Assembly: GCA_905234505.1 (NCBI GenBank) | Contig: CAJOIA010000001.1 | Span: forward strand, 1 to 44,629 | Origin: an uncultured Selenomonadaceae bacterium | Lineage (GTDB): Bacteria > Bacillota > Negativicutes > Selenomonadales > Selenomonadaceae | Reading direction: 5' to 3' | Length of the DNA: 44,629 nucleotides | Made by a program: the position numbers and the translations under genes | Notes under the pieces: model-generated | What the model was told of the DNA's origin: nothing | The model's input: only the letters and a program-made list of their open reading frames with translations | Databases searched by the model: none | Shown here: positions 1,490-44,629 of the stretch, in pieces | Numbering within the stretch: position 1 is the first letter of the stretch | Layout of the letters: each line of letters begins with the position of its first letter

Positions 1490-2707
1490 TTGCCTAGAAT
1501 TTTTTTCATTATAATCATTCTGCTCTGCGCGAGTGGTTGCGGCAATGAAATTACAGAAATAGATTTGCCAGTTGCGGTTAAAAGTGAAATTGACACGGTG
1601 CCTGAAAAAATTACCACCGACATTTATTTCGACGCAACTGTTTCAATGCGCGGCTATACAACATTGTCGGGCGGCAATGTCTATCGCACTTTGCCGGATA
1701 TTTTAAGCGATATCGGCGGCTCTATGGGTGAAGTAAATTTTTACAGTTTCGGCGAAAAGATCAAGCCGCTTGTTGGCAAAGATTATCGCCGCTTCAGCTC
1801 GCCCGAACCTTATAACGAAATTATTACCGCCGCGCACAACGTTATAGATAAATCTGAGCCCTCGCATTTGTCGGTAGTTATTACTGACCTTTTCGAGAGC
1901 GACGCTGATTGGAGCAATATTGCGCAGAAAATCCGCGATAAATTTTTTGCGAATCATCTTGCCATTGCGGTTATTGGCGTGAAAAATTCTTTCAGCGGCG
2001 ATATTTTTGACGTTGGACTTAACGCCGCCAAATTCCGCTACGATTCAAACATTTTGACTGAAAAATTTCGTCCGTTTTACCTGCTGATTTTGGGCAATGA
2101 AGTGGCGGTTGAAAATTTTATGCAGAAATTCAAGGAACATCAGACATTGCCGAATGAAACTAAATATCTGCTGTTGTCTGAAAATCATGCAAGTGGCACT
2201 TTTACCTTGCTGGAAGTAGCGAATTTTTTTGTTGAAGACAGGCTGAATGTGGCTGACAAGGGCGTTTTAGAATTTGGCATAGATAAATTTAGTGAGCCCG
2301 CCAGTTTCGTCGCTCAATTTAATTACGATGCGCCGCTTGGTGCTTGCCCGATGAATTTTGATGAAATTGATTATAACGTACAAAATTTTTATTTGGAAGA
2401 TGGCGCGTGGCTGAGTTCTGCGCGAAAAGATTTAAAAAATGCAATGACGGCGGACGAAGTGTCAATTGAATTAATGCCCGAAAAAACTTTATGTGAAGGC
2501 AAAATTAATTTTATTCAAGTGACAGTTTCGCCAAATACTAAATTGCCGGAATGGATTAATGAGTGGAATATGGCAAATGTAGACGCCACGCCCGAGGATT
2601 TCGACGGCTCAAAAACTGTCAATCTGCTCCACGTATTAAGCTCGCTCAAAGATTCTATACATCACACCGCGCTTTTTAAATTAAATTTCGTGGTAGATGC
2701 TAGATAA
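1490..2707 (+). CDS. Lipoprotein with vWA-like domain
   Basis: Signal peptide with lipobox (LLCASGCGNE); MIDAS-like DIYFDATVSM and later VVITDLFESD. TTG start with SD ggagg. Confidence 0.65.
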   Translation: MPRIFFIIIILLCASGCGNEITEIDLPVAVKSEIDTVPEKITTDIYFDATVSMRGYTTLSGGNVYRTLPDILSDIGGSMGEVNFYSFGEKIKPLVGKDYRRFSSPEPYNEIITAAHNVIDKSEPSHLSVVITDLFESDADWSNIAQKIRDKFFANHLAIAVIGVKNSFSGDIFDVGLNAAKFRYDSNILTEKFRPFYLLILGNEVAVENFMQKFKEHQTLPNETKYLLLSENHASGTFTLLEVANFFVEDRLNVADKGVLEFGIDKFSEPASFVAQFNYDAPLGACPMNFDEIDYNVQNFYLEDGAWLSSARKDLKNAMTADEVSIELMPEKTLCEGKINFIQVTVSPNTKLPEWINEWNMANVDATPEDFDGSKTVNLLHVLSSLKDSIHHTALFKLNFVVDAR

Positions 2708-3212
2708 AAAAACACAACGCCGCCAAAATTACAACAACGCCAAGAAAAATTTTCAGCTTAGAGAATGTACTATCTGACGAAGCGTCCTGCGCGAAATTTG
2801 AAGGTGAATAAATCTGCTGCTCAGTCAAATCAACGGGTTGCCGTTTCGAACTACCATTTTTTTTAAGCTCATAGTTAACAATAACCGACAAATCTTCTTC
2901 GAGCTTTGAGGCATCTATTGGCGCGTCGCGCAGAACATTGGAAAAAGTATGCAACACAAAATCAATGCGCGCCGATTGCATTCCAGATTTTTTTAATGCG
3001 ACAGCGGCTTTTTTCTGAGCCGCGTCAATATTCTCAACCAAAATGAAAAGCGCGCCAATATTCAACTCTAAAGCCTGCCGAATCGCCGCATAATCCCGCC
3101 TTAAATTGTTCGGCACTTTTTTATCAAGAACCGCAATCAATTCCTCGCGCCGCAATAAAATATTTCTGTCCTGCGCGAAAACCTCACGCAAAATTTCTTC
3201 CATAAAAATCAC
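2700..3212 (-). CDS. Tail-anchored helical protein, last gene of the cytoskeletal-like operon (likely start ATG at 3203)
   Basis: C-terminal TM LKIFLGVVVILAALCFFI; SD AAGGTGAT precedes ATG at 3203 (MEEILREVFAQD). Confidence 0.7.
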   Translation of the reverse strand: MIFMEEILREVFAQDRNILLRREELIAVLDKKVPNNLRRDYAAIRQALELNIGALFILVENIDAAQKKAAVALKKSGMQSARIDFVLHTFSNVLRDAPIDASKLEEDLSVIVNYELKKNGSSKRQPVDLTEQQIYSPSNFAQDASSDSTFSKLKIFLGVVVILAALCFFI

Positions 3213-3216
3213 CTTG

Positions 3217-4113
3217 TCAAGTGAGAATTAAAGAGCCCTTAGTGTGCAAAATCCATTCGCCTTTGAAAATCGCCGGCTTGTCAATGAAAATTCCATTGTA
3301 ACTGTCGCCGGCATTAAAATTCGACTTGAAAATTTCGCCCATCGCCTGCTGAAAATGTATGTTGTTATTGTAGTTTTTAATCTTTGGAACAACGGCAAAA
3401 GTCCCCGCCTCAAATTCAAAAGCCCAATAATTACCACTGCGAACAGGAGTAACTTCCTCAAATTTCGGCGGAGGTATAGGCTCGTCAATGCGCATTTCAG
3501 CATTAGTACAATTAAAAGCCCGCACTTTGAATTTCTGAATAAAATCATTAAAAGCCCTGCGCGAATCGGCGTCTTGCCCGCTCAAACTCAAAAGCGCGTT
3601 GAACTCATTAACAAAATCGTCAAATTTATTAGCTTTCTCCGGCGGTACAAAATTAATAATTTTTTTATTGGGCGGCGGTTCAAAGGTCTTTACAATGATC
3701 TTTTCCTCCTGAGCAGTTTTAATTTCGCTAATGCGCCGTTCTAAATCAGCAATTTTATTTCTAAGCTCAGAAATTTTCTTGTCGGCGTCTCTAAATTGGT
3801 TGCTGTGATTCTCGCGCATTTTGTCAATTCGCGAAGAATTTTCCTTGCAAAGAACAATACAAAGCATAATAGCTACAAGCGCCATAGAAACCGCCGCAAC
3901 CGAAATATAACCAGCAACCGAGCCAAGCGGAATATCAGGCGCCGCCTCAATTTTAGCTTGAAGCTCGGCGAATTTATTCTCAGCAGAAGCTTTGAAGGCG
4001 TCAAAATCCGCCTGCGCGACAGTCTCAATTTCAACCGGCGCGGTCATTTCTTCTTCAATGTAGTATTCTTCAGGCTCGTAATCTTCTTCACGGTCAAAAT
4101 ATTCTTCGTCCAT
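3217..4113 (-). CDS. Membrane protein: acidic N-terminus, single TM, coiled coil, C-terminal globular domain
   Basis: Acidic MDEEYFDREEDYEPEEYY; TM YISVAAVSMALVAIMLCIVLC; heptad-like DADKKISELRNKIADLERRISEIK; SD lies in the end of the upstream gene. Confidence 0.75.
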   Translation of the reverse strand: MDEEYFDREEDYEPEEYYIEEEMTAPVEIETVAQADFDAFKASAENKFAELQAKIEAAPDIPLGSVAGYISVAAVSMALVAIMLCIVLCKENSSRIDKMRENHSNQFRDADKKISELRNKIADLERRISEIKTAQEEKIIVKTFEPPPNKKIINFVPPEKANKFDDFVNEFNALLSLSGQDADSRRAFNDFIQKFKVRAFNCTNAEMRIDEPIPPPKFEEVTPVRSGNYWAFEFEAGTFAVVPKIKNYNNNIHFQQAMGEIFKSNFNAGDSYNGIFIDKPAIFKGEWILHTKGSLILT

Positions 4114-4114
4114 A

Positions 4115-7100
4115 TTAAAACATCTCCATTAAGCGCTTAAGTTCAATAATAAAAACCGGCTCAAGAAAAATTTTCTTCACGTCAACGCCCATATTCGCCA
4201 CGTAAAAACCGTTGGTATCCTTGATAATTTCTTCAGCAGATTCTTCATCAAAATCAACGCCCTCAGCCCAAAGATTCGCCGCCGCGTTAAAAGCCTGCAT
4301 AAATCTTTCAAAAACCTCAAAAGTTGTAACGTTAATGCCTTCCGAAACGTCATTTGCGCTGATAAATGCGTCAGCCGGAAAAGTCTTTTCACCTTGAGAA
4401 AATTCAGCGCCCGCTAATACAGAATTATAAATGTAGTCTTCCGAATCCTCACCAAAAAGTTCCTCATTAATGCGCTCTTGGTCAAAAAAAACTTCCGCAT
4501 TATTCGGCGGCTCAATAATCATCCCGCTAGCAACCTCAACTTTGGGATAATGACTGAGATTAAATTGAAAACTGCGAAGCCGCTTAAGCCCCGACGCCGT
4601 GACAAGCATTTTTTCAAGCACTTTCAGATAGGGATTATTTTCAAGTTCAGTGCCGCCCGCTATCCAGCGAAAAATACGCGAGCCATTCCCGCCAATAAAA
4701 ATGTGCGGGATATTTTTATGATTATAAATTTCCGCCTCATAGAGCGCGCCCAAAATTTCTCCAATGTAATAAAATAAACCCGCCGTTGCTAATTGCGCGC
4801 ATTGCAAAACTTCCTTGACTTCCTGTCTGCCAGTTTTAAAAGCCAGATTTTGAATATATTCTTCGCTGTTTTGGCGCATATCGGCATCAATTAAAGCCTG
4901 GCGCTGATCGTCGGTCAGAGCTTTAATTTGCTCAATATTTTTGCCGAAAAGCTCATAGTGATCGTAAATCGGCTTGAACATATACCGCCCCGCGTATTGA
5001 ACAGAAGTATGAAAAACAATTCTGCCAGGTTGTCCGCTGATAACGGTAATATCGGTGGTACCCGCGCCAATATCCACGCAAACCGCGCCGTGATTAAAAT
5101 TCGATACACCAGCATTGAGCTTATTGAAATAATACGCCGCCGCCTGGCTTTCGGACCAAGTTTCAATTTCAGCATCACTATTGCCGGTATTTTCGCAGGC
5201 AAATTTCACAGCGTCGCGGCAAGTGGCATCAAATGCTAAACTTTGCTCTTTGGAAAAGGCGGTAGGATATGAAAAATTCCACTGAATTTTATCAACGCCA
5301 TTAGCCGCTGCTTCAACCAGCGCTTGAAAACAAATCTGCTGAATATACGCCGCAACTTTCCGCCGCCCAAAATCTTCATTTTGCCATTTCAAATTTGTAT
5401 CAACGTCGTTGCCGAGTTCCTCAAAAATTCGAGGGCTGATAAAACTAAGCACGTGACCATCAAGCAACGCGCGAATTTCTCCAGAATCATTACGTTGCAA
5501 CAAATGGAAAACGCTCAAAAATGAGCCGTCCGATCTTATCGGCTGAATTGAAGATATAAAACTCAAAAAAGTATTTGCCCGCGCGCCGCGACTTTCAGTT
5601 ATCTGCAAGAGGTGCGAATCAAAATCCAGCGGCTTAGGCGGTTGCTTGTCCTGCGCGAAGTAAAGCATTGTTGAACTTGTTCCGAAGTCAACGCCAATTT
5701 TCCAATTTAAACCAACCTGCCGCTTAAAATTGTGCGGCTTATTCAAAAGCAACGCGCCAATTTCCACAGCAACGTCACCGAGCTTGTAATTGCAAATCAA
5801 AGCCTCTGGAAAATCATTCAGTCGCGCAGTTAACCGATTTGCTAAACCGTAAGCAGGAAATTCTTCACAAAGCGCCTTGTCAAAACTAAATGGCTCAATG
5901 TACAGCATTTCTTCAACCAGCAGCTCAGCATTATCTTTCGCCTGCGCCTGGTAATTCTCATAGTACAGATAATATTTATTCCAGCCCGCGCGCCGAACAT
6001 TCGGGTAAAGCTCAATTACTGGAATATCTTTTTGAATATAAATCAGATTATCGCCGCTATAATTTTTTGTGAAGCGATATTCGCCACTTTGAAGCGGAAA
6101 TTTAAAATGCACCGAAATATCATTGTCAGATTCTGCAGTAACCGAAATGCGGCTGATAATTTCTTCCGGCGAAAAAAATTCAAGCAACTCACGCTTAATT
6201 GGCAAAATAATATCAAGGTCTAAATTCGCAATTTGCGCCGCGCCTTCAATTTCAATAGCGCCAATAAAAGATTTACTCGGCTCAATTACCGCCAATTTCG
6301 CATAAAAAAAATCTTCCGGTCGGCGATATTCCGCATCCTTTAAAACAATTTCGCCGATTTTATTTTTATCGCCCTGCAAACTTTCTTCAGTTATATCTGC
6401 GGCACTGACGCCCTGCCAAATAATTAATTGCGACGCGTCAATATTTTCTTGCTCGGCGAAATCGCGTGCCATTTGTGGAGAAACTATCAGCAAATTTTTC
6501 TTTTTGCGCTTGGAATTTGTCAGAAGTCGAACCGCTGAATCTGCTATCGTGGCTACGCGCGCCTCAACTGTACTATTTAAAATTCGCGCAGTGCCAATAT
6601 GCAAATCTAAATTCGAAGCTACAAGATTTAATTTCGGCGCAGGCTTATTTTTAATCTTCGCGCCAATATCACGCCGATAATATTCAATGCACGTCAAAAG
6701 TTTTCCGGCAATTTCTTTCGAGCTTCCGCTCACAGCTTTGCTTATTTCTTGCAATTCGCTATAAACATTATCCAGCCAAAAATCCATTGCAAAAAGTTCT
6801 TCGCCAGAAAGTTTATCAAGCGGGTCAATCAGATTTTTATTTTTATCAAGCCAAGGGGCGGGCGGTTCGTCAATAAAAGTTTCAATATAATCAGCGGCAC
6901 TGGCAACCAACGTAACCGGCGAAGTCATTGCAAAAGGCTTGCCCTTATAAAAAAGCACGTAAATATCACTGTGCCAGGAATTTTCATCGCCATTAAATGA
7001 ATCACTTGGAATTAGCGCCTTGAAAATCTGCGCGAGATCAGTTGAAGTATTTTCCGCCGCGTCCAAATTTACCGAAACCGCCTTGATATTCAAATGTCGA

Positions 7101-7414
7101 ATTTCTTTCAGCGCCAACATAGCCAAAATCGCGCGCCATTCGCCAACAACTTTATCATGCAAACCGGCAACAAATTCACGCAAATTATTATCCGCGTTAA
7201 AATCAAAAAGCGCCATTTTAAAAAGCAACGGACGCGCCCAAATATCCGGTATAGAATCAATGTTGCTGATATCTTCCAAAGTCGAACCGGCGGCTAAACT
7301 ATTTACAAGGCTCGTCAGATAATCGCTGTCAGTTTCTCGCGTCCATTCGCCCGCGTTTCTGTCAATAAACCGCTGATTTTCTCTGTCAATTTTCGGGAGC
7401 ATTGGAAAAGACAT
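4115..7414 (-). CDS. Actin/Hsp70-fold (ASKHA) ATPase-like protein with large N-terminal extension
   Basis: Phosphate-1-like IGVDFGTSSTMLYFA, phosphate-2-like VCVDIGAGTTDITVISG, adenosine-like HIFIGGNGSRIFRW; SD AAGGAGTG. Confidence 0.82.
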   Translation of the reverse strand: MSFPMLPKIDRENQRFIDRNAGEWTRETDSDYLTSLVNSLAAGSTLEDISNIDSIPDIWARPLLFKMALFDFNADNNLREFVAGLHDKVVGEWRAILAMLALKEIRHLNIKAVSVNLDAAENTSTDLAQIFKALIPSDSFNGDENSWHSDIYVLFYKGKPFAMTSPVTLVASAADYIETFIDEPPAPWLDKNKNLIDPLDKLSGEELFAMDFWLDNVYSELQEISKAVSGSSKEIAGKLLTCIEYYRRDIGAKIKNKPAPKLNLVASNLDLHIGTARILNSTVEARVATIADSAVRLLTNSKRKKKNLLIVSPQMARDFAEQENIDASQLIIWQGVSAADITEESLQGDKNKIGEIVLKDAEYRRPEDFFYAKLAVIEPSKSFIGAIEIEGAAQIANLDLDIILPIKRELLEFFSPEEIISRISVTAESDNDISVHFKFPLQSGEYRFTKNYSGDNLIYIQKDIPVIELYPNVRRAGWNKYYLYYENYQAQAKDNAELLVEEMLYIEPFSFDKALCEEFPAYGLANRLTARLNDFPEALICNYKLGDVAVEIGALLLNKPHNFKRQVGLNWKIGVDFGTSSTMLYFAQDKQPPKPLDFDSHLLQITESRGARANTFLSFISSIQPIRSDGSFLSVFHLLQRNDSGEIRALLDGHVLSFISPRIFEELGNDVDTNLKWQNEDFGRRKVAAYIQQICFQALVEAAANGVDKIQWNFSYPTAFSKEQSLAFDATCRDAVKFACENTGNSDAEIETWSESQAAAYYFNKLNAGVSNFNHGAVCVDIGAGTTDITVISGQPGRIVFHTSVQYAGRYMFKPIYDHYELFGKNIEQIKALTDDQRQALIDADMRQNSEEYIQNLAFKTGRQEVKEVLQCAQLATAGLFYYIGEILGALYEAEIYNHKNIPHIFIGGNGSRIFRWIAGGTELENNPYLKVLEKMLVTASGLKRLRSFQFNLSHYPKVEVASGMIIEPPNNAEVFFDQERINEELFGEDSEDYIYNSVLAGAEFSQGEKTFPADAFISANDVSEGINVTTFEVFERFMQAFNAAANLWAEGVDFDEESAEEIIKDTNGFYVANMGVDVKKIFLEPVFIIELKRLMEMF

Positions 7415-7426
7415 ATTTTCACTCCT

Positions 7427-8899
7427 TCACGCGTCGCATGCTTCATACAATCGCCTCAAAAATTTTCCAAATCCATTAATTGACGAATCCAAATTTAAAT
7501 CTTCGGTAAGCCTGTACCAAACTTCGTGCAATGTCAATTTCGGATTGGTTATAACGCCGTCGCAGGCATAAAATTCTTCCGCATTCACTATTCGCGCAGG
7601 TCTGGACTCGAACATTGCCGATTTTATCAGCGCAACTTCCCTGTCTTGCAAAGTTTCAAGTTGTTTAAGCCACGTCACAAAAGATTCTGCGTAGTCTTCA
7701 AAATTTTTCACCGCGCCGGTATTAACAATGTCAGCTTCCGAAAAATAATCCACGTACCAAGGATATTGATAATCTTTAATGTCGCCGCTCGACAAGCCAC
7801 GCAAAACCGGCTTGATAAAATGCACATAAGCAAAAACAAATCGCGCAAATTTGGCAAAGCGTTTCCTGAACTCAAAATCTTTCGCGTCACCATTTTCAAT
7901 TTCCTCAAGCGCCGGAAAATCGCTCCAACTAAATTTATTGCTGTCATTGTGAAAAATGCAATTATAAACTTGCGAATAATCGGCAGGCTGATTGAAAAAA
8001 TCTATAGCGGCAAGCGCAGCGTAAAAATCCACAATATGCGCATCGTTTTTCTGAGTGGCAGCGCCAATGCTGAATTTTTGAAAATGCGTCACGTGTGAAT
8101 CGCCAACAAAATACATCGCGTTGAAAACATTTTCGCGTTGTGCATAATATTTGAGCGCGGCTTTGGTATTCGTTAAAAAATTTTCCGAGCGCGCAAAAAG
8201 TTTATCAGCTTCAGCGGGCGGCGGAAAACTAAAGTACGGCAGAATAAAAGCGCCGCCAATCAAAATAGTATTTTTATCTGGCGAATTATCCTTAAGGTCA
8301 TTTCTCAAAAGTCGGGCGATGGTCGGCATTCCAGAGGCGCCTGTCCCGCCAAATACCGAGCCCGCAAAAAAAATTTTTATCTCGCCGCCGTTGTTCGCGT
8401 CCTGCTTAATCTTTTGAATAAAATCTGTCCATTGCGTATTTTTATTGTCGCGCAGAGTATATTTTTTCGCCAAAACTGCCGCGCCAATTGAAGGATGTCC
8501 GCGAAACCCTTCATTCAGTTTGGTATTTCTTTCGCGCCGCGTATATAAAACTTCGTACAAATTGCCTAGTGAACCGCCCTTGTAAATCTGATAATCCATT
8601 AAATCATCCAGCGTCTTATCAATTTCAATCGGATTCCAAGGAAAAGGTTTAATCAGCGTCATTTTAGTTTTAAAAAGCGGCGTATCATTGCCAACACTCA
8701 GCTTTTGAAATTTTATATAGCTATTCAGCGCAAAACCGCTGCGCTCCAAATTGCCATTGCCAGAATCGGGATCAATTGCCAAAATATTAATTTCCTCGCG
8801 CGTAGGCATAACGCCCGCGACGCATAAATGAGTTAACGCTTCAAGAACTTTTGCGCCACTGCCGCCAATCGAAATAAAATAGTAGCTCATAAAATTCAC
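7427..8899 (-). CDS. Tubulin/FtsZ-like GTPase-fold protein (likely start ATG at 8890)
   Basis: N-terminal FISIGGSGAKVLEAL, LAIDPDSGN, and glycine-rich T4-like FAGSVFGGTGASGMPTIARLL. SD AGGAAG precedes MSYYFISIGG. Confidence 0.78.
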   Translation of the reverse strand: MNFMSYYFISIGGSGAKVLEALTHLCVAGVMPTREEINILAIDPDSGNGNLERSGFALNSYIKFQKLSVGNDTPLFKTKMTLIKPFPWNPIEIDKTLDDLMDYQIYKGGSLGNLYEVLYTRRERNTKLNEGFRGHPSIGAAVLAKKYTLRDNKNTQWTDFIQKIKQDANNGGEIKIFFAGSVFGGTGASGMPTIARLLRNDLKDNSPDKNTILIGGAFILPYFSFPPPAEADKLFARSENFLTNTKAALKYYAQRENVFNAMYFVGDSHVTHFQKFSIGAATQKNDAHIVDFYAALAAIDFFNQPADYSQVYNCIFHNDSNKFSWSDFPALEEIENGDAKDFEFRKRFAKFARFVFAYVHFIKPVLRGLSSGDIKDYQYPWYVDYFSEADIVNTGAVKNFEDYAESFVTWLKQLETLQDREVALIKSAMFESRPARIVNAEEFYACDGVITNPKLTLHEVWYRLTEDLNLDSSINGFGKFLRRLYEACDA

Positions 8900-9393
8900 T
8901 TCCTAGCCAGAAAAAATCTTGCACCAAGCGGCGTGTATTTGAAAATTTTGGGCGTTGTGAAAATCGTTAACAGCCAATAGCCTATTCCTGCAAAAAATAT
9001 TATAAAAACCGCTATGACAATGAAATTTATTTTTATTCCGAGTGTGCTTGAATAAAACTGTGGAATGGCTACACATCCGATTAAATCTAGCGCCGCCAGT
9101 GCTGCCCAAACTGTTCTTTTGCCTATGCCGCGCGACGAATTTATTTTGAAAATCCAGCGTGTAAGCACGAACCACGCCAATGAGCATAAAAATGATAAAA
9201 TGCCCGCGTTTATAGTCAGCGATTGAAATTTTTCTTGCCAGCGACTGAATGCCATATTGCCGGACGCCGTTGCTAATTGATGCCCCGTGATTGACGACGT
9301 AATGAAATAAGTCAATATCACACAGCTGAACGTAACCGCGATAATTGTTGCTAATTTTGCTAAGGTGCGTAAGTCACGATTCATTAAAACCAC
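8896..9393 (-). CDS. Four-TM hypothetical membrane protein (likely start ATG at 9384)
   Basis: Four hydrophobic segments; SD AGAGGTGG precedes ATG at 9384; its TGA stop overlaps a possible GTG start of the tubulin-like ORF. Confidence 0.72.
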   Translation of the reverse strand: MVLMNRDLRTLAKLATIIAVTFSCVILTYFITSSITGHQLATASGNMAFSRWQEKFQSLTINAGILSFLCSLAWFVLTRWIFKINSSRGIGKRTVWAALAALDLIGCVAIPQFYSSTLGIKINFIVIAVFIIFFAGIGYWLLTIFTTPKIFKYTPLGARFFLARK

Positions 9394-43854: not shown

Positions 43855-44629
43855 TTTGACGCCATTTTTGCCAATTATGTTGTTTTTTCCCGAGGAAAAG
43901 TCCAAAATCGGCGTTTTCAAAAATGAGAATCGCGTACTGACGCCATTTGTACCAATTTGATTGTTTTTTCCCGAGGAAAAGTCTAAAATCAGCAGTTTCA
44001 AAAATGAGAATCGCATACTGACGCCATTTTTGCCAATTATGTTGTTTTTTCCCGAGGAAAAGTCTAAAATCAGCATTTTAAAAAATGAGAATCGCGTACT
44101 TACGCCATTTCTGCCATTTATGTTGTTTTTTCCCAGTGAAAAGTCCAAAATCAGCAGTTTCAAAAATGAGAATCGCATACTGACGCCATTTGTGCCATTT
44201 ATGTTATTTTTTACCGAGGAAAAGTCCAAAATCGGCGTTTTAAAAAATGAGAATCGCGTACTGACGCCATTTATCGCATTTTGATTGTTTTTTCCCAGTG
44301 ACAAGTCCAAAATCGGCGTTTTAAAAAATGAGAATCGCGTATTGACGCCATTTGTCGCATTTTGATTGTTTTTTCCCAGTGACAAGTCCAAAATCAGCAG
44401 TTTCAAAAATGAGAATCGCATACTGACGCCATTTTTGCCGATTATGTTGTTTTTTACCGAGGAAAAGTCCAAAATCGGCGTTTTAAAAAATAAGAATCGC
44501 GTACTGACGCCATTTCTGCTGATTATGTTATTTTTTCCCGAGGAAAAGTCAAAAATCAGCAGTTTCAAAAATGAGAATCGCGTACTGACGCCATTTGTGG
44601 CAATTATGTTGTTTTTTCCCGAGGAAAAG
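43855..44629. repeat. 81-bp tandem repeat array (minisatellite), at least 9 full copies, continuing beyond the window
   Basis: Equivalent positions at 43882, 43963, 44044, 44125, 44206, 44287, 44368, 44449, 44530, 44611: exact 81-bp spacing with no indels. Confidence 0.95.

Follow-up and report, generated by a model that had tools for sequence, protein, structure and literature searches.

Tubulin-fold and actin-fold nucleoside triphosphatases (NTPases) are known to be encoded together in bacteria. The textbook operon pair is ftsA–ftsZ, whose actin-fold ATPase can anchor and tune the tubulin-fold polymer at the inner membrane; magnetosome islands encode MamK and an FtsZ-like protein, and plasmid partition employs NTPases of both folds. 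Here, we describe a locus in a 44,629-nucleotide stretch of DNA from an uncultured Selenomonadaceae bacterium (contig CAJOIA010000001.1, positions 1 to 44,629; hereafter ‘the window’), which is part of a 1.79-Mb assembly (GCA_905234505.1) with rumen Selenomonadaceae as its nearest public relatives. The locus comprises six genes encoding a tubulin-like protein, a large protein of the ASKHA (actin/Hsp70-like) superfamily, three membrane proteins, and a lipoprotein. The initial annotation of the window considered the pairing of a tubulin fold with an actin fold in one operon unusual; given the precedents above, the pairing itself is not new.

As set out in their main text, Makarova and Koonin (2010; PMC2875224) linked FtsZl1, the family called Tubulin_2 in Pfam, to von Willebrand factor A (vWA) proteins, GTPases, OmpA proteins, and membrane proteins, and predicted that these systems remodel membranes; an extended coiled-coil and helical C-terminal domain is the majority FtsZl1 architecture in that text. 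Bacterial systems in which GTPases are combined with tubulin homologues, HSP70, and vWA proteins have already been described by Kaur et al. (2020; PMC7159879). The link to the 2010 work that the initial annotation drew is supported: Tubulin_2 is FtsZl1, and a lipoprotein with residues like those of a vWA metal-ion-dependent adhesion site (MIDAS) belongs to the set.

The set is best regarded as a variant of the FtsZl1–vWA systems. It shares with them, as they appear in the 2010 main text, a Tubulin_2 protein and several membrane proteins in one operon, alongside a secreted protein (vWA there, vWA-like here), together with an OmpA-family protein that is present here only in deep relatives (loci L024 and L143) and absent from the window operon. 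Unlike the systems in that text, it has a tubulin of 490 amino acids without the long coiled-coil extension (judged by length only) and a large MreB/FtsA-like ASKHA partner, and neither a P-loop GTPase nor a protein kinase, frequent though not universal in FtsZl1–vWA systems, was found among the genes scanned in and around the operons of the window, L023, L024, and L025. What is new is the ASKHA protein together with the tubulin in nearly every genome, with no GTPase found among these genes; we class the set as a variant because we found no ASKHA protein mentioned in the main text of PMC2875224 and because tubulin and HSP70 are non-overlapping themes in the DO-GTPase/GAP1-N2 systems of PMC7159879, whereas here the tubulin and the MreB/FtsA-like ASKHA protein co-occur almost throughout. 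The features of the window are as follows, in operon order.

8896..9393, minus strand: integral membrane protein with four transmembrane (TM) segments, 165 amino acids (four hydrophobic segments; open reading frame [ORF] list).
7427..8899, minus strand: divergent Tubulin_2/FtsZl1-like putative GTPase, 490 amino acids (T1 GGSGAK, T3 AIDPD, T4 VFGGTGASG; PF13809 match).
4115..7414, minus strand: putative ASKHA ATPase, 1,099 amino acids (phosphate-1 DFGTSST, phosphate-2 DIGAGTTDI, adenosine GGNGSR; PF06723 match).
3217..4113, minus strand: single-TM coiled-coil protein with an acidic N-terminus (sequence and TM segment; C-terminal domain fused to the ASKHA protein in one subclade).
2700..3212, minus strand: tail-anchored protein (C-terminal TM segment).
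1490..2707, plus strand: lipoprotein bearing the vWA-MIDAS-like pattern DATxSM...TDLF, its C-terminal half predicted to be beta-rich (lipobox, MIDAS-like residues, co-occurrence).

Between 9393 and 2700, the five minus-strand ORFs are separated by −4, +12, +1, and +4 nucleotides; their tight packing, their motifs, and the TM segments that associate their products with the membrane are as first annotated. The annotated extent needs enlarging: the five genes stand, but a sixth partner, the lipoprotein gene, lies outside that range, convergent with the operon and overlapping its last gene tail to tail by 8 nucleotides. In relatives, the order is lipoprotein, 4-TM protein, tubulin, ASKHA protein, coiled-coil protein (one or two copies), and tail-anchored protein. 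The lipoprotein gene is thus the first operon gene, upstream on the same strand, in L018, L023, L024, L099, L104, L106, L108, and L109, and it stands at the opposite end, convergent, in the window as well as in L013 and L014, the relatives closest to it.

These six genes are a conserved module that is gained and lost jointly; its GTP- and ATP-binding motifs are intact, and its products include membrane proteins and a lipoprotein. The tubulin is carried by 54 of the 189 genomes of the family. An ASKHA gene is present in 53 of these 54 (the one genome without it is 59% complete) and a lipoprotein gene in 49, versus 0/20 for either gene in same-genus genomes without the tubulin (Fisher test, not corrected for relatedness: 4e-17 for tubulin–ASKHA, 9e-14 for tubulin–lipoprotein); the gene-neighbourhood comparison foreseen in the initial annotation therefore did find co-conservation. 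Mapped onto an RpoB tree that covers 60 of these genomes, the module changes state eight times, with at least five changes forced by well-supported branches. Across five independent pairs on this tree, the ASKHA and lipoprotein genes shift in the same direction as the tubulin (sign test 0.0625, the lowest value that five pairs allow); in a few random pairings one of the five pairs did not differ, and none was opposite in direction. In an excision comparison with the sister genome G130, the flanking peptidase gene was unmatched. In part of the genus the module genes lie on different contigs and are all retained (examined: G168, G676, G678, G704, and G710).

The tubulin-like protein is assigned to the Tubulin_2/FtsZl1 family by its match to PF13809 (E 5.1e-9, 36.3 bits; cut-off 27), and its N-terminal domain, predicted to bind GTP, carries the T1 and T4 glycine loops, whose cores are at or near invariant in 36 homologues. 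Over residues 7–227, an alignment of these tubulins also matches the long Tubulin_2 proteins found in other Firmicutes (hhalign E 7.6e-7). The protein is nonetheless divergent, with 36.3 bits against roughly 188–260 bits for the long members, and the L023 homologue scores just under the PF13809 cut-off; at 490 amino acids versus 843–1,192 in the long members of L112–L114, it is, by length, without their C-terminal architecture.

The ASKHA protein begins with a region of about 560 amino acids of no recognised family, followed by the predicted actin-fold domain, which its sequence places among the MreB/FtsA-type members of the superfamily. The match to PF06723 (MreB_Mbl) is just above the cut-off of 27 (E 1.8e-6, 27.5 bits), and the same model is matched by 10/10 homologues at E<=1; Pfam FtsA is matched below threshold, and the NCBIfam models give 4e-5 for MreB and 2e-4 for FtsA. 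Compared by hhalign with 26 MreB sequences, the 43 ASKHA homologues align from phosphate-1 through phosphate-2 with an E of 9e-15 (reversed-sequence control E 0.34), and the best PDB match is MreB 7bvy (E 3e-6). The phosphate-1, phosphate-2, and adenosine motifs occur in order and are conserved at or near 100% in the 43 homologues. With motif residues that vary little or not at all across 36 and 43 homologues, respectively, the Pfam matches of the tubulin and ASKHA proteins are not chance ones, and both original fold assignments, tubulin/FtsZ-like and actin/Hsp70-like, are supported. AlphaFold, named at the outset as a further check, speaks neither for nor against the folds: with shallow alignments, mean pLDDT (predicted local distance difference test) values were 40 for the ASKHA protein, an unusable model, and 55 for the lipoprotein, a poor one. 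SrfB (PF07520) was considered as the identity of the ASKHA protein and rejected, with zero Pfam matches in 10 homologues. A phylum-wide search with the ASKHA profile matched 164 genomes; among the matches listed, the full-length protein was found only in the window's genome and in G058, and the remainder were short MreB phosphate-2 matches.

In the subclade whose module genes are dispersed over contigs, a natural fusion connects the ASKHA protein to a membrane partner. Homologues of at least 1180 amino acids make up 25 of the 43 distinct ASKHA sequences, and in the four long ones examined the C-terminal extension matches the C-terminal domain of the coiled-coil protein (E 1e-51 to 4e-55). This fusion argues for direct contact between the ASKHA and coiled-coil proteins; it also suggests that the C-terminal domain of the coiled-coil protein is cytoplasmic, because the fused ASKHA part is expected in the cytoplasm.

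The lipoprotein carries the pattern YxDATxSMxGY ... TDLF. In 36 homologues the lipobox G-C is invariant, the MIDAS D/T/S residues are conserved at 100%, and the later T-D at 97/100%. Aligned with vWA_2 by hhalign, the family gives an E of 0.0057, collinear with the MIDAS (controls 0.06 to 0.7); no Pfam vWA model was matched. The AlphaFold model gave weak, non-significant beta-sandwich matches in Foldseek, and a profile search against the PDB returned ribosomal S24 noise and nothing else.

The module probably forms an internal scaffold tied to the cell envelope. More specifically, we propose, with confidence evenly poised between acceptance and doubt, that the six genes encode a single cell-envelope apparatus, in which a scaffold of two NTPases is anchored to the membrane and coupled across the envelope. 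We make this proposal because the operon has an FtsA–FtsZ-like pair, a TM protein with a domain that can occur fused to the ATPase, two further membrane proteins, and a lipoprotein carrying MIDAS-like residues. In the cytoplasm, at the inner membrane, the tubulin-like GTPase would polymerise or serve as a switch; the MreB/FtsA-like ATPase would bind it and anchor it via the coiled-coil/TM protein, as FtsA tethers FtsZ; and the 4-TM and tail-anchored proteins would supply the rest of the membrane platform. In these diderm Negativicutes, the MIDAS-like site of the lipoprotein, with the periplasmic extensions found in relatives, may relay the state of the scaffold to a divalent-cation-dependent ligand, either periplasmic or in the outer membrane, the output being local envelope organisation or remodelling. 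We infer polymerisation, tethering, signalling direction, and output from this arrangement. Like the FtsA–FtsZ divisome, the module has an operonic pair of actin-fold and tubulin-fold NTPases at the membrane; unlike it, the module is accessory and patchy rather than universal, its ASKHA protein has the unrelated 560-amino-acid N-terminal region, and there are an extra lipoprotein and extra membrane subunits.

Several points weigh against such a scaffold. According to the main text of Makarova and Koonin (2010; PMC2875224), the FtsZl1 family is without recognisable T6–H7 and C-terminal elements, with which FtsZ polymerises, and filaments may therefore not form. The ASKHA domain could be a chaperone-like switch instead of a membrane tether. 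The lipoprotein is best called vWA-like, an assignment based on the motif and a weak profile match. The membrane-remodelling prediction of 2010, for which no experimental follow-up was found in the literature searched, becomes directly testable, with a near-obligate actin-fold partner, a contact-indicating fusion, and defined envelope subunits in Selenomonadaceae.

It is highly improbable that the two NTPases instead constitute a cytomotive DNA-segregation cassette of the TubZ/ParM kind. Both folds are at work in plasmid partition, but the module sits among ordinary chromosomal genes (in the window, trpE/trpG as judged by sequence), no DNA-binding adaptor was recognised in the operon, and membrane proteins and a lipoprotein account for four of the six products.

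Deep versions of the module are found in G091, of another family (L024), and in G725, of the window's family (L143), with ASKHA proteins 29–31% identical to that of the window. In both (L024:13963-16415; L143:5721-8208), the operon continues with MotA/ExbB-family and OmpA-family genes, for which PADLOC gives ZorA and ZorB as the best hits. The OmpA proteins are 67% identical between the two loci, the ASKHA proteins 34%, and the TM aspartate of the OmpA protein (SFTDLML) is present in both; in L024 the lipoprotein joins motor, tubulin, and ASKHA protein. The likeness to Zorya ZorAB is confined to these two loci and consists of a MotA/ExbB protein with a long helical tail and a MotB/OmpA protein with the TM aspartate. 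Unlike Zorya, the motor is joined to a tubulin and an ASKHA protein, the ZorAB-like pair is absent from the window, and no ZorC, ZorD, or ZorE was found among the genes scanned. In a further locus (L025:14558-15727, minus strand; G202), the lipoprotein and a TM-bearing ASKHA homologue have as their neighbour a divergent FtsZ-like protein (PF00091, 38 bits), which apparently stands in for the Tubulin_2 protein. GTPases of the tubulin superfamily, ASKHA proteins, and this lipoprotein therefore recur together even with a tubulin of another family.

A rival reading is that the module serves in NTP-dependent biological conflict (defence), like the systems of Kaur et al. (2020): a vWA-like sensor would act with ASKHA/tubulin NTPases that assemble into a threshold-gated effector scaffold at the membrane. 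The GAP1-N2 systems with tubulin and vWA, or with HSP70-fold, components in envelope-associated Firmicutes operons (PMC7159879), the patchy and joint presence and absence of the module, and the ZorA/ZorB-like subunits of the deep relatives favour this explanation. We think it unlikely, since no DO-GTPase, GAP1, or FNIII component was found among the operon genes scanned (no genome-wide search was made), nor any P-loop GTPase, kinase, or recognised defence effector; no variable effector domain was seen, PADLOC matched nothing in the module core beyond a coiled-coil-type hit, and the genes of one subclade are scattered yet kept, unlike a mobile defence cassette.

Returning to the envelope scaffold, one branch would add an ion-driven ZorAB-like motor, thereby connecting a cytoskeletal NTPase pair with an ion motor that reaches the periplasm. 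In its fullest form, the proposal is of a distinct bacterial cytoskeleton: a polymer of the tubulin family and an ATPase of the MreB/FtsA kind would cooperate obligately and signal across the envelope to the vWA-like lipoprotein, with the motor powering one branch; we advance it tentatively and with more doubt than belief.

Genes with envelope functions neighbour the module in other loci: a GH3 (NagZ-like) protein is encoded downstream in four loci of other genera (L018, L023, L099, and L104), and a DegP-like trypsin/PDZ protease downstream in L099 and adjoining the lipoprotein gene in L108 and L109 (L109 by sequence only). Together with the MotA/OmpA pair of L024 and L143, these genes count in favour of the envelope scaffold. 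The window also contains, at 15954-41513 on the minus strand, an ORF of 8,519 amino acids that is rich in G, T, D, and N, contains 51 RTX-type GGxGxD motifs, and has hardly any cysteine; repeats resembling its own occur near the module in L022 and L097. These neighbours would also suit a chaperone or surface-display apparatus, in which an Hsp70-like ASKHA protein, the vWA-like lipoprotein, and the DegP-like protease fold or export surface proteins, the giant RTX-like one for example. That role seems quite unlikely: the ASKHA domain resembles MreB/FtsA and not HSP70, neither a substrate-binding domain nor a J-protein or GrpE was seen, and adjacency to the giant protein, known from three loci only, may be inherited synteny.

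The remaining observations concern gene parts and surroundings. For three genes, the true starts are probably in-frame ATGs 9 nucleotides downstream of the listed GTGs (4-TM, 9384; tubulin, 8890; tail-anchored, 3203), because homologues begin MNR, MSYYF, and MEEIL and the spacing to Shine–Dalgarno-like sequences fits. A Pfam scan gave nothing informative for the 4-TM, coiled-coil, and tail-anchored proteins, which are called membrane proteins by hydrophobicity; matches of the coiled-coil protein to LmuB (PADLOC) and of Relaxase_C type (Pfam) were set aside as coiled-coil similarity, not identity. In most relatives, the gene immediately upstream of that for the tubulin encodes a 4-TM homologue, and the tail-anchored homologues of L014 and L023 are longer, extending beyond the TM segment with a CAP_assoc_N-like region (weak match, under cut-off). 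In the dispersed subclade, the neighbours of the tubulin gene are YrbL-like and LytR-CpsA-Psr genes (L102:10002-12135, Pfam), and a kinase-like/vWA/phosphatase-like trio (by sequence) lies further on from the tubulin gene at L101:10422-16651. At the far end of the window (43857-44629), an 81-bp tandem repeat of at least 9.5 copies with 87% matches occupies the 5′ part of the trpE-like ORF and runs off the window end.

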